Source: Mastigias papua
Lineage: Eukaryota; Cnidaria; Scyphozoa; Rhizostomeae; Mastigiidae
Assembly: GCA_964019165.1 (NCBI GenBank)
Contig: OZ025281.1
Span: forward strand, 10,183,888-10,247,887
DNA length: 64,000 bases
Reading direction: 5' to 3'
Shown here: positions 12,511-63,724 of the stretch, piece by piece
How the letters are laid out: each line of letters starts with the position of its first letter
Position numbering within the stretch: the stretch's first letter is position 1
The notes under the pieces: generated by a model
The model's input: only the letters and a program-made list of their open reading frames with translations
Database searches by the model: none
Told to the model about the DNA's origin: nothing
Position numbers and translations under genes: made by a program

Positions 12511-12550
12511 ATGTATGGTTTTGAAAGTTCACGTCCAGATGATCCTTCTG
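12511..12550 (+). CDS. gene A exon 1: N-terminus of predicted membrane micropeptide
   Basis: ATG at 12511 opens a 40-nt coding exon, MYGFESSRPDDPS plus the first base of a Gly codon, followed at 12551 by a strong donor GTAAGT (phase 1). Genes B (31545) and C (45441) have the same 40-nt exon, the same phase and the same donor; the shared pattern is M-x-G-(Y/F)-(D/E)-x-x-x-P-x-x-P-(S/A)-G. Joined to 26512-26580 (or 26524-26580), 27142-27174 and 27815-27819 it gives about 48 residues (44 with the later acceptor): a short hydrophilic Pro/Gly-rich head, one transmembrane helix and a tiny tail EHAKS. There is no signal peptide, so type III-like insertion is plausible. I know no family to assign. 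The roughly 14 kb intron 1 is full of transposon relics. The splice model is inference; paralogue agreement is the support. Confidence 0.62.
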
Positions 12551-12784
12551 GTAAGTCAGCTAGGGTGCAGTTTTACCTCTTATTTTTTACGAAAAGGTTT
12601 TATGTACGTATGATCAGTATTATCGTCTGCTAGATTGCAATGCACTTTTCCTAAATGAAATGAGATGTTGCATTAACATGGTAGACTTTTATATAAATTT
12701 GACTACTTGAATGAGATGGAATTTGCCACAATCTGCAAGAAAATGGAATTTAAGTAAAATTTTGTGCCAGGTGCTATCCTCTTA

Positions 12785-12812
12785 TCGGGGGGGGGGGGGG
12801 GGTGGGGGTGCA
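12785..12812. repeat. poly-G tract
   Basis: A run of about 15 G residues, interrupted once and followed by GTG. It may have a G-quadruplex tendency. It lies inside predicted intron 1 of gene A. Confidence 0.8.
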
Positions 12813-13147
12813 TTTAGGGTAGATTATGCGACTAATACACACTTACATTTATAATGGATTTGCTAAGCATTCATATTATCACGATTTGTGGGTGGCCCAG
12901 CTTTAAAATTTGAAATGCCATTGGCATTCAGTAAAAAAATTGTCGCTAAGTGTCGCCAGACCTTATGACTTCTAGTTTCCATAACGTTTTAGTTTCACAG
13001 AGTTGTCTCTAGCTATTGCTAGCTGTTTCTACCTATCGCTGAGTTAGAACATTTTCTAGATAGTTGCTCTATATGAGAACTTTTTACCAAAAAGTTTTTG
13101 TAAGTATATTTTCAAAATTTTATTGTAAGTAGGTTATGGTTTTACAT

Positions 13148-13507
13148 TTATATATATATATATATATATATATATATATTCTATATATATATATATATAT
13201 ATATATATATATATATATAGATATATATATATATATATATACATATATATATATATATATATATATATATATATATATATATATATATATATATATATAT
13301 ATATATATATATATATATATATATATATATATATATATATATATATATATATATATATATATATATATATATATATATATATATATATATATATATATAT
13401 ATATATATATATATATATATATATATATATATATATATATATATATATATATATATATATATATATATATATATATATATATATATATATATATATATAT
13501 ATATATA
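13148..13507. repeat. long (TA)n microsatellite
   Basis: About 360 bp of nearly pure TA, the longest array in the window, with a few interruptions near its left end. The Tyr-Ile frames on both strands are artefacts. Confidence 0.98.
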
Positions 13508-13623
13508 CCTTGTTAATTTACATATTTTTGTTATGGAAGGCCCCTTGAAAATCAGTACTCCTGAAGGGCTACTCTCTTTAAATAGTTGAAATGAAAAATG
13601 AAATGAAATTAAAATCGCTGAAA

Positions 13624-60700: not shown

Positions 60701-62480
60701 TCTTCTAAGATGCTATATGATAATATAGTTGATAATTGATAATATATAATATAGTTGATTTGCTGGTCAGTTTTACAAAAACAAAACAGCAGATTCATCG
60801 TTCAAACATTGCTCAATGTATACATTTTTAGCTCTGTTTTGAACGATAATATTGATGAAGCATGTCGGACTTCAAATGGCTATGTATTCCAAATAAATCT
60901 AAGAAAACGTCATCGGCTTCAAAAAGTTGATTGAGAACCAATAAATCTGTTTTTAGGCATCTGCAGATTAAGCATTTCTTGGGTATTACTAATGAGAAGA
61001 TGAACTCAATAAGAAATAGTCACAAAGGCAACAATTTGAAGTTTCTTCTAGCAGACTCGAAGACAAAAGTTAAGAGCCGGAGGTCAAATATTGTATTTGA
61101 AGCCCGAGAAAATAGTTTATTATAGGAAGGTTTCAAATGATAACTGACTACAAGAATAATTTACTAAGCTCCCCTTCGAATAAGCCCTCATATCAAATAA
61201 GCCCTCGAGGGAAAACCAAACAATAAAATAAATCTCCAGGAAGCTAACTTGAGCACTTACAATAACTATACTATCTTCTTTGCGATAAATTTGATTTCTT
61301 TGTTGCTTGTTCTGATTACACCGTTTTATTTTATAAGAAACCAAGCTCAAGATTTAGTACTAACAGTTTCTTAATTTGTGGCCACATTTTATCGAAGATG
61401 AAAGTTAAGAGCCGGAGCTCTAATATCTCAGAAAGTGTTGGCATTTTTAGGTAAATTAAAGTCTGAAGAGCAAGAGACTTACGGGGTTAAAAGGAGGTAG
61501 CTTTGAAAACTTTTCGTGTAATTTGAACATTAAATCAATATATGATGCACATGTATGACTCCAACAGTAATGCCACCAAGTATGAAGGAGAGAAACAAGG
61601 CATTGTACAAGCAAAGTAAAACGTCGAATCGAAGTAGGTCAATAATTTTGAAAAACATTCCAAATGATCTAGCTAGTTTTTTGAGAGCTCATTGAGATGA
61701 CATGCCGAGCTTAGATGCTCACCTATGAGAAGAGCTAAAAGCTTAACAGACTTAGGGTTCAGTCATATATCGATTTGGTGTTCGCTAAGTGTCATTTCTA
61801 AGTTAATGATGGCAGATAAACAGTCCCAACGCTGATAAAAATTGGTTATAAATGAATTTTCATATCATATGTTATAAATCACAGTAATGTCCTGAGACAG
61901 CGTTGTCTCACCAAAGATCCACTTTCCAGCGAGGTGAAATTCGTTGATGTTGTTGTCACCAAATAGGTATTGAAGCTGTTCTGCCGGCTAGACGCGGGCA
62001 TGTATTTCGGACGGAGTAAATTTCTGAGCAGAAGGCTTTTGCAGAAGTGTGTCAATTAGCTTACTTCATTTATCTGGCATGTCAACAGTTGTTATGAATA
62101 TTAAACGACTTGTACAAATATAATAACAACCTCCTAGTTCAACTCTTGACGTCTATGTCGAGACAGCTCATACCAAACCGAAAAATACTGCTCATCTAGT
62201 AGCATCAAACCATACGGTTCATTACAGGGCAACTTCATTTTATAAACTAATTCAACTATCAATCATAGTCAGCATAGTTATTTCTGATATTTTACTTATA
62301 TTCAGTTTTATGCTCTGATCACAATTCTAGCGATCTGCAAGGTTCTAGAGTGAATTCGATAGATTATTAGATTCCAGACTTACCTCGTACTAGCATGTGC
62401 TTGGAGGCCAGTTCTCAGTTTGTCACTGACCGATGCTAATCCTAAGGGGCAGGATGGGGTTCGAAAGTTAGCGTCGAAAT
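60701..62480. other. AT-rich intron 2 sequence of gene C
   Basis: A duplicated AAGTTAAGAGCCGGAG motif occurs at 61068 and 61404. No coding, RNA or other repeat supported. Confidence 0.4.
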
Positions 62481-62481
62481 T

Positions 62482-62754
62482 ATGTTAAGCGATTTACTTG
62501 AATTTATCGAGAATAGAACTTGTCAAGTTTCTTTTGGGGACTCCCTGTCAAAATTTGTTGATACTGTGTCGCTCTTCAAAGATTGTCGTGTTCTTGCAGT
62601 CATTTCCAGAGCTCAAATTCGCGTTGAGCATATTCCCATTGATAGATTTCAAATTACTCTTAGCACAATTGATAATGGGATATCACATAAAAACCTATTT
62701 AACGTGATTTGGATAACCAAACTTTTAGGAGAATATGATATGATGGAAACCTGA
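62482..62754 (+). other. unrecognised 90-residue open frame
   Basis: ATG at 62482, stop at 62752. It contains LSDLLEFIENRTCQVSFGDS and NGISHKNLFNVIW. It does not resemble a family known to me, has no clear splice signals and lies in predicted intron 2 of gene C. It could be a transposon relic or chance. Confidence 0.25.
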
Positions 62755-63680
62755 AGAAGCTCTTTTGCTGCCGAGGGCCTATCGTAAGCACTCCAGTTCC
62801 AACATCTTCTTCAACTACCTCTTCATTTGCTCTCTTTTCCTTTTCCAACTACAAGTTAAGCAGTTGTGCGTCCCTTCTATAACTCTAGACTGCAATCTAT
62901 AATGAAAAGCACTCAGAAGTAAGCATAGGTTTACATGTATGTTCTAAGATCGCGTGTAAATGTAGTAATTAATTTTGACGTCACAATAGTGGGATCACCT
63001 TAAGGGATAAGACAAAGATTCAAAAATTTACATCTAGGGAAATTAACACTAATTGCTTTGCTACTCGAAATTGTCGTCCTTTGTTTATGCTTTGTTTTCA
63101 AGAAGCATTTTATTACCTTCAAAACGCGTTTTTCTTGTTGATTTTATACACCCCGGAATTCTCATTTAAAGTTCTTTAGGGAGCGGTCATTATTTATGGT
63201 CGGGGTGGAGATTGAAGAGAAAGTCTTATGTTCCTCAAAAAGTTTTACCCTACCATTTGCTAATGTAAAATATTTCTTCACCGCACCGAAGAAAGCAGTA
63301 ACACAAGACTGCCTTTTTTGCTTAAATATGGTATACGTCTTTACACTCCCCCGTGGTCAGAGATTATTCTTCTACCCCACCTAGCACAGGGTATCTTTTT
63401 TCAGTTACTCCAACTATTTATCTTCAGTCCCGACCCCAATCATCAATAATGACCTCTTCTATAGAAAAGTATACTTCTATGAAGCTAAGGTCATGTAGAA
63501 TATGATTAAAATTGACAGTAAGATTAAGCTAACAGCTGTTGTTTCATGAGTTAAAATTCCAAGCGAAGAATTGTTATTTACTATTGTCTTTTTCTGCTTC
63601 AGCGGTACTATTGGAATCCTAAGAAAAACTATTTCTTAATGTATTTCTTGAGCATTATTTTAATCAAACTCAATTTTCAT
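62755..63680. other. intron 2 sequence of gene C, nothing recognised
   Basis: Pyrimidine-rich at 62790-62850. The frame 63196-63384 shows no family features. Confidence 0.4.
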
Positions 63681-63689
63681 TCCTTATAG

Positions 63690-63724
63690 TTGCAGTTGGT
63701 ATTGGTATTTACGTTGCCAGCTAA
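63690..63724 (+). CDS. gene C exon 3: end of helix and stop
   Basis: Acceptor TTCCTTATAG at 63689. Phase-1 entry gives V-AVGIGIYVAS and TAA at 63722-63724. The GIGIY matches VGIYF of gene A exon 3. It completes the 44-residue protein. Confidence 0.62.

Follow-up and report, generated by a model that had tools for sequence, protein, structure and literature searches.

In vertebrates, regulators of SERCA are short single-helix membrane peptides that annotation overlooked, and micropeptides of the SERTM2/SERCA type derive, as far as is known, from single or few genes and are conserved in sequence. In a stretch of 64,000 nt from the jellyfish Mastigias papua (contig OZ025281.1, positions 10,183,888 to 10,247,887; hereafter the window, whose numbering is also used for positions outside it), we find part of what is probably (we would put the chance at roughly 0.7) a family of protein-coding genes arranged in tandem in a medusozoan cnidarian, each with four exons when intact and each encoding a short tail-anchored membrane peptide. 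Unlike SERTM2 and the SERCA regulators, the jellyfish family takes the form of a tandem, diversifying cluster in which the coding sequence is split over micro-exons; what it has in common with the vertebrate SERTM2, as characterized in the consulted part of PMC12019361, is that short single-helix membrane peptides have been overlooked by annotation.

With respect to gene structure, the closest described system is formed by the schistosome micro-exon genes (MEGs), whose coding region consists, according to the sections of PMC4350168 consulted, mostly of very small symmetrical exons, whose products all have a signal peptide, and which are apparently restricted to platyhelminths. The same sections report small symmetrical exons, recent lineage-specific duplication, nearby transposable elements and fast protein change, i.e. 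properties that recur in the jellyfish. MEGs also vary their protein pool through alternative splicing; in the jellyfish, exon 2 of A has two possible acceptors that lie 12 nt apart. The present peptides, on the other hand, are without a signal peptide as judged by hydropathy, are found in a cnidarian, and would be assembled from three coding exons into a helix peptide of 44-66 residues. The absence of a signal peptide and the non-platyhelminth host imply that the jellyfish family is not a member of the MEGs. The aphid bicycle genes, putative effectors that are expressed in the salivary gland according to the consulted part of PMC9168663, resemble it in being fast-evolving orphans whose intron-exon structure outlasts the sequence and can guide the search; this is an analogy only, and no sequence relation is claimed. 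Among the papers listed in the literature searches, no description of a cnidarian micro-exon gene family was found.

In the gene model that we propose, a first exon of 40 nt would encode the N-terminus, which is hydrophilic and follows the pattern M-x-G-Y/H-x-N/D-P-x-P-P-G-P-S-G, a second exon, in phase 1 and 54-126 nt long, would add the first half of a helix together with a variable linker, a third exon of 33-42 nt would complete the helix and supply a short tail, and a fourth exon would be mostly untranslated. Transcription, splicing and translation would then yield products some 44-66 residues long that lack a signal peptide and carry a single helix at the C-terminus, and these two properties make a post-translational, tail-anchored insertion into the membrane, with the N-terminus in the cytosol, the most likely route. 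The DNA itself presents the copies with their order, strand, phases and splice signals, the homology across the splice junctions and the fast change of exon 2.

The window is a piece of a contig of 15.07 Mb (C19) in a genome of 347 Mb and 172 contigs. We read 200 kb around it and 30 kb more downstream, i.e. 294 kb including the window, and scanned both strands without gaps for exon 1, allowing at most five mismatches and requiring the ATG and the donor with few mismatches. Nine copies were recovered, exclusively on the plus strand, which are labelled a to i in order along that strand (the three genes of the window, A, B and C, being c, d and e; see Table 1). A tenth candidate at -38094 had six mismatches and a poor donor and was discarded as a chance match. 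The sequence-only reading of the window had spoken of a tandem family of three genes; the tandem arrangement holds, the size does not, as the 294 kb contain no fewer than nine copies of exon 1. Its three first exons of 40 nt, each followed by GTAAGT, were found in place both by reading and by a degenerate pattern with three matches in the window and none in any of 100 shuffles, a result that speaks of rarity only, the pattern having been derived from A, B and C themselves. In a nine-way alignment that includes 160 nt upstream and 100 nt downstream, the ATG and GGTAAG are conserved in all nine copies, and every gap-free window of 46 columns touches or covers exon 1. A motif like TTATACCAAGGGGAAGT, which is possibly a core promoter, can be recognised some 110-150 bases upstream of exon 1 in most of the nine.

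Genome-wide DNA searches, which yield lower bounds, returned at least four matches for exon 1 of C, at least two for exon 1 of b and at least two for exon 2 of a (namely copies a and f), all of them on C19 within the region read. Exon 4 of C returned at least seven rows, of which five lie on C19, the farthest of them 450 kb past the beginning of the window (short loci around the matches make up the coverage from 194 to 450 kb), and two are pieces of a single fragment on another contig, C17. Since the rows for exons 1, 2 and 4 thus amount to 13 on C19 and two, from one fragment, on C17, the exons searched are not dispersed repeats.

Complete four-exon models were obtained for A, C, f and g, the latter two outside the window, with the exons of each in order within its own interval. 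They share a first exon of 40 nt, a second of 60, 69 or 126 nt, a third of 33-42 nt and a 3' exon, and their exons 2 and 3 (33-126 nt) are multiples of three with phase 1 at either end (phase 1-1). The sequence-only reading had placed phase-1 exons with a helix at 26512, 37052 and 60002, and these stand (in A, a possible alternative acceptor 12 nt on, with the exon starting at 26524, would shorten exon 2 to 57 nt); its third exons of A and C were correctly positioned as well, except that A does not end there, as a donor follows and a fourth exon at 27815 carries the stop codon. In C, f and g the stop lies in exon 3. Downstream of exon 3, the four models continue with a donor and then a block with a conserved TTCCAAYAG acceptor (in C, exon 4 lies at 73415, beyond the window). 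This acceptor is conserved in seven of the eight copies examined, i.e. A, B (where it reads CCCAACAG), C, f, g and two downstream loci (L043 and L044), and is lost in h.

When hydrophobic exons of 45-90 nt in phase 1 were sought, the plus strand yielded 28 rows (seven of them from one CA repeat) and the minus strand four. Among the former are the second exons of A, B, C, g (GGSGCGKLICWAVVILVIAG) and i, and for a the beginning of this exon; its full 126 nt in a and f were delimited by aligning both copies. Exon 3 was sought with criteria taken from A and C; of the 11 plus-strand rows, six fall on four sites, which belong to A, C, f and g, and the minus strand has a single row. Third-exon candidates for a, B, b and i were not adopted, though one for B at 38297 is retained as weak. 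Within the stretch assigned to copy b, two helix-exon candidates at -54159 and -23945 are 98% identical; they represent a duplication of exon 2 or else belong to a repeat. It is conceivable that the exons are real and that the cluster consists in part of alternative first exons that share downstream exons, some copies being without a private exon 2 or 3, given that for some first exons an exon 2 or an exon 3 was not recovered and that f is a chimera, derived from recent duplication blocks, whose 5' half resembles a and whose 3' half resembles C. We consider this improbable, because A, C, f and g each hold four ordered exons in their own interval and B has exons 1, 2 and 4. The recent duplication blocks (63229-77103 versus 117476-122026, mostly outside the window) are 95-97% identical.

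The predicted spliced products comprise 48 residues for A, 44 for C, 44 for g and 66 for f. Those of A and g align over 42 residues with 48% identity (E=7e-9 in a single comparison), and the similarity spans the three coding exons. For exons 2 and 3 taken together, the pairs A-g, A-C and f-C surpass all of 500 shuffles, where the similarity of f and C is to be expected since their third exons stem from a recent duplication. The products also agree in hydropathy: the Kyte-Doolittle maxima over 19 residues are 2.69-3.02 and lie near the C-terminus in A, C, f and g, the best helix window ending one to five residues from it, whereas the first 20 residues are hydrophilic in all six products examined (mean Kyte-Doolittle -0.46 to -1.76). 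No signal peptide was apparent from the hydropathy of the products, and by the same measure A, C, f and g have the tail-anchored architecture, i.e. a C-terminal single helix, a short tail and no signal peptide. For one such tiny single-helix membrane peptide, each gene appears to span some 15 to 40 kilobases.

The alternative that these are exons of a regulatory or other non-coding RNA within duplicated DNA, with incidental reading frames, would be in line with exon-1 flanks that are about as conserved as exon 1 itself, and with the non-significant family-wide selection on exon 1 discussed below. It is nevertheless highly improbable in view of the matching phases in four models, the homology of the spliced A and g peptides, and the third exons, which lie where they are expected in four copies and have the strand ratio given above. 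No known Rfam RNA could be assigned either, as there were no matches at gathering scores in the window. Moreover, exon 1 of b and f differs by seven synonymous and two amino-acid changes (Fisher 1.4e-4 on rounded site counts), which suggests purifying selection on the encoded N-terminus, with the proviso that this pair is the most extreme of 36 and was picked after the fact.

Between the recent copies a and f, the second exon differs at 30 of 126 sites (24%), as compared to 53 of 2107 (2.5%) in the flanks (Fisher 3.4e-18). A change-point search that was blind to the exons, and that covered eight blocks in total, starts the fast segment at -80572, which is precisely the first base of the predicted exon, with a log-likelihood ratio (LLR) of 32.4 versus at most 7.2 in 30 shuffles. 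The segment ends at -80432, i.e. 15 bases past the predicted donor; this end also matches the in-frame stop of f that would be reached by reading through the exon, and exon 2 of a and f is therefore possibly terminal. In C/g, C/i and g/i, i.e. in three of three older pairs, exon 2 is 53-67% alike as compared to 62-80% in the 40 nt on either side. Between B and its sister copy h, exon 1 is 90% identical in surroundings of 78-79%, exon 2 is 73% identical with 88-90% nearby, and exon 2 of B contains the 45-nt window of lowest identity in the 1.3-kb block that aligns to h. Beyond the shuffles there are further fast patches, namely 38291-38447 in B/h, which covers the weak exon-3 candidate, and two marginal ones.

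The fast exon 2 of a and f may alternatively have been acquired by gene conversion from another diverged copy. Its synonymous sites are indeed raised as well (4/35 versus the 2.5% in the flanks), and the excess of amino-acid changes taken alone (26/91 versus 4/35 sites, p=0.06) is non-significant. Selection is the reading we prefer and conversion appears to us doubtful, because the onset of the fast stretch coincides with the acceptor, because its end is no more than 15 bases away from the predicted donor or else, if the exon is read through, falls on the stop codon of f, and because the genome-wide search with exon 2 of a returned only a and f, albeit by a search with blind spots.

The p-value of 0.06 is one of several observations that weigh against the proposed family. 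Over all 36 pairs, the ratio of amino-acid-changing to synonymous differences per site (pN/pS) in exon 1 is 0.76, with 0.98 and 1.35 in the other two frames, and as 23% of 2000 column shuffles are as low (p=0.23), family-wide purifying selection on exon 1 is not demonstrated. A and C differ in exon 1 by one synonymous versus ten amino-acid changes. The C-g comparison of exons 2 and 3 is no better than shuffles (65 of 500 reach its score). For a, b, B and i, exon 3 is missing or uncertain, and b has no more than a candidate for exon 2. Multiples of three were required by the exon-2 scan, and the exon-1 scan was gapless and biased towards intact starts and donors, so that broken copies would be missed and the gaplessness is partly by construction. 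A fast patch at 64209-64281 in e/f (LLR 14.9 versus 10.8 in shuffles) coincides with no known exon, the change-point in the B/h block around exon 2 does not select that exon, and exon 3 shows no clear pattern relative to its flanks. Finally, no homologue was found in the protein collection, which holds predicted proteins and may therefore lack spliced micro-exon products. The sequence-only reading had itself named a dN/dS near 1 together with a lack of homologues elsewhere as what would speak against it, and part of this is what we find, i.e. the exon-1 ratio given above and, in the protein collection searched, no relative from outside the genome.

Common descent must be taken into account too. 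A and C are about 68% alike within 9194-12716 and 43284-45644, non-coding DNA included, and as they were duplicated together with their non-coding surroundings, the agreement among A, B and C in lengths and splice sites does not count as a set of independent coincidences. The earlier argument that chance cannot explain the matching lengths, phases and splice sites is therefore right as such, but much of the match is explained by the descent of duplicated DNA. Most copies might be decaying duplicates, with one or two expressed and the others pseudogenes like h. Copy h is without an AG at the exon-2 acceptor, the exon-4 acceptor and the weak exon-3 candidate, where B keeps the first two, and it looks like a pseudogene; the exon-1 pN/pS is near 1 in many pairs, and retroelement frames and long introns occur throughout. 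We nonetheless hold a general decay to be unlikely, as all nine first exons are open, whereas in 91% of column shuffles one copy or more acquires a stop (the scan, it should be noted, favoured intact copies), and as neutral decay would not give an exon 2 that changes about ten times faster than its flanks in a/f. On balance the gene models, the splice sites, the A/g homology and the fast exon support the proposed tandem family of micropeptide genes with very short exons and single-pass products.

Its relatives could not be traced with profile or protein searches. Pfam returned no family for any of four peptides (a partial, g, A and C), NCBIfam returned six rows for g and C, all under the cut-off, and none for A and a partial; the sequence-only reading had likewise named no family with this pattern. 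In the protein collection no candidate shared three words, and of 230 candidates in a second search none reached E<=10. An interferon-inducible 6/27-like domain, considered for the Gly/Ala-rich exon of a and f, was rejected on the basis of a motif scan and the lack of a Pfam match.

Table 1. Exons of genes A, B and C, the block upstream of A, and exon 1 of the remaining copies (window numbering).
Feature	Position	Strand	Details
Block upstream of A	11404..12510	+	~68% identical to 44298-45440 upstream of C; presumed promoter and 5' untranslated region (UTR) of A
A exon 1 (copy c), 40 nt	12511..12550	+	MYGFESSRPDDPS + G; donor GTAAGT; peptide MYGFESSRPDDPSG
A exon 2, 69 nt, phase 1-1	26512..26580	+	helix begins here
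A exon 3, 33 nt, phase 1-1	27142..27174	+	VGIYFIVEHAK; donor GTAAGT
A exon 4	27815..28215	+	stop codon, then presumed 3' UTR; 3' end approximate, placed where similarity to other copies stops
B exon 1 (copy d), 40 nt	31545..31584	+	MFGYDNPLPEGPA + G; donor GTAAGT; peptide MFGYDNPLPEGPAG
B exon 2, 60 nt, phase 1-1	37052..37111	+	
B exon 3, weak candidate	38297..38340	+	in-frame VIFVVVKLKKL...; acceptor and donor weak, end uncertain
B exon 4, start	40273..40306	+	conserved CCAACAG acceptor; end given is the end of similarity to C exon 4
C exon 1 (copy e), 40 nt	45441..45480	+	MPGYDNPHPPAPS + G; donor GTAAGT; peptide MPGYDNPHPPAPSG
C exon 2, 60 nt, phase 1-1	60002..60061	+	first half of helix
C exon 3, 42 nt	63690..63731	+	VAVGIGIYVAS stop, then donor GAG/GTAATT
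Copy a exon 1	-90076	+	peptide MSGHSDPRPRGPSG
Copy b exon 1	-59095	+	peptide MSGHSDPNPPGPSG
Copy f exon 1	79869	+	peptide MSGHSDSYPPGPSG
Copy g exon 1	126385	+	peptide MPGYDNAYPPGPNG
Copy h exon 1	146811	+	peptide MFRYDNPLQEGPAG
Copy i exon 1	159425	+	peptide MANHENPFPPGPFG

Intron 1 of C contains a long open reverse-transcriptase frame of a retroelement (57377-58702; Pfam RVT_1, E=4.7e-32). In a protein search for reverse transcriptases, 8000 candidates were scored and 3028 of them reached E<=1e-50; among the 120 listed, a single one is named, as hypothetical protein. Other retroelement-like frames were recognised by eye across the region. Direct and inverted repeats of 300-482 nt that are 99-100% identical are found within 2714-6012 and are perhaps a recent insertion of a mobile element. 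TA dinucleotide arrays of up to 359 nt are located at 3126-3741, 13149-13507, 41150-41306 and 42129-42210. Elsewhere in the assembly, a contig of 16,455 bp (C172), read with code 4, has a family-B DNA polymerase-like frame close to one of its ends; its minus strand carries cox1, and there are cox2, atp6, cox3, nad2, nad5, nad6, nad3, nad4L, nad1, nad4 and cob on the plus strand, the gene names having been assigned by eye from translations; we take this order to be the linear mitochondrial layout of medusozoans, and of scyphozoans in particular.

As to function, the reading that we favour is a role akin to defence or recognition, where the part of the peptide within the membrane would be under pressure to change and the N-terminal motif would remain recognisable; venom or regulator roles may also apply. 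In its most far-reaching form, which we put forward tentatively and think rather doubtful, the cluster would be a cnidarian micro-exon system independent of that of flatworms, with at least ten copies (one of them a pseudogene) over about 540 kb, that serves as a repertoire for membrane defence or self-recognition by joining, through micro-exon splicing, an N-terminal tag to rapidly diversifying membrane helices. More generally, such genes are easily missed by the calling of open reading frames, given that the well-supported coding exons of A, B and C are all 69 nt or shorter; homology searches are likely to miss them as well, and cnidarian annotation may lack families of short membrane peptides. 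If true, the family would provide a second, independent case of fast-changing micro-exons outside the flatworms, by which selection for this architecture becomes testable.

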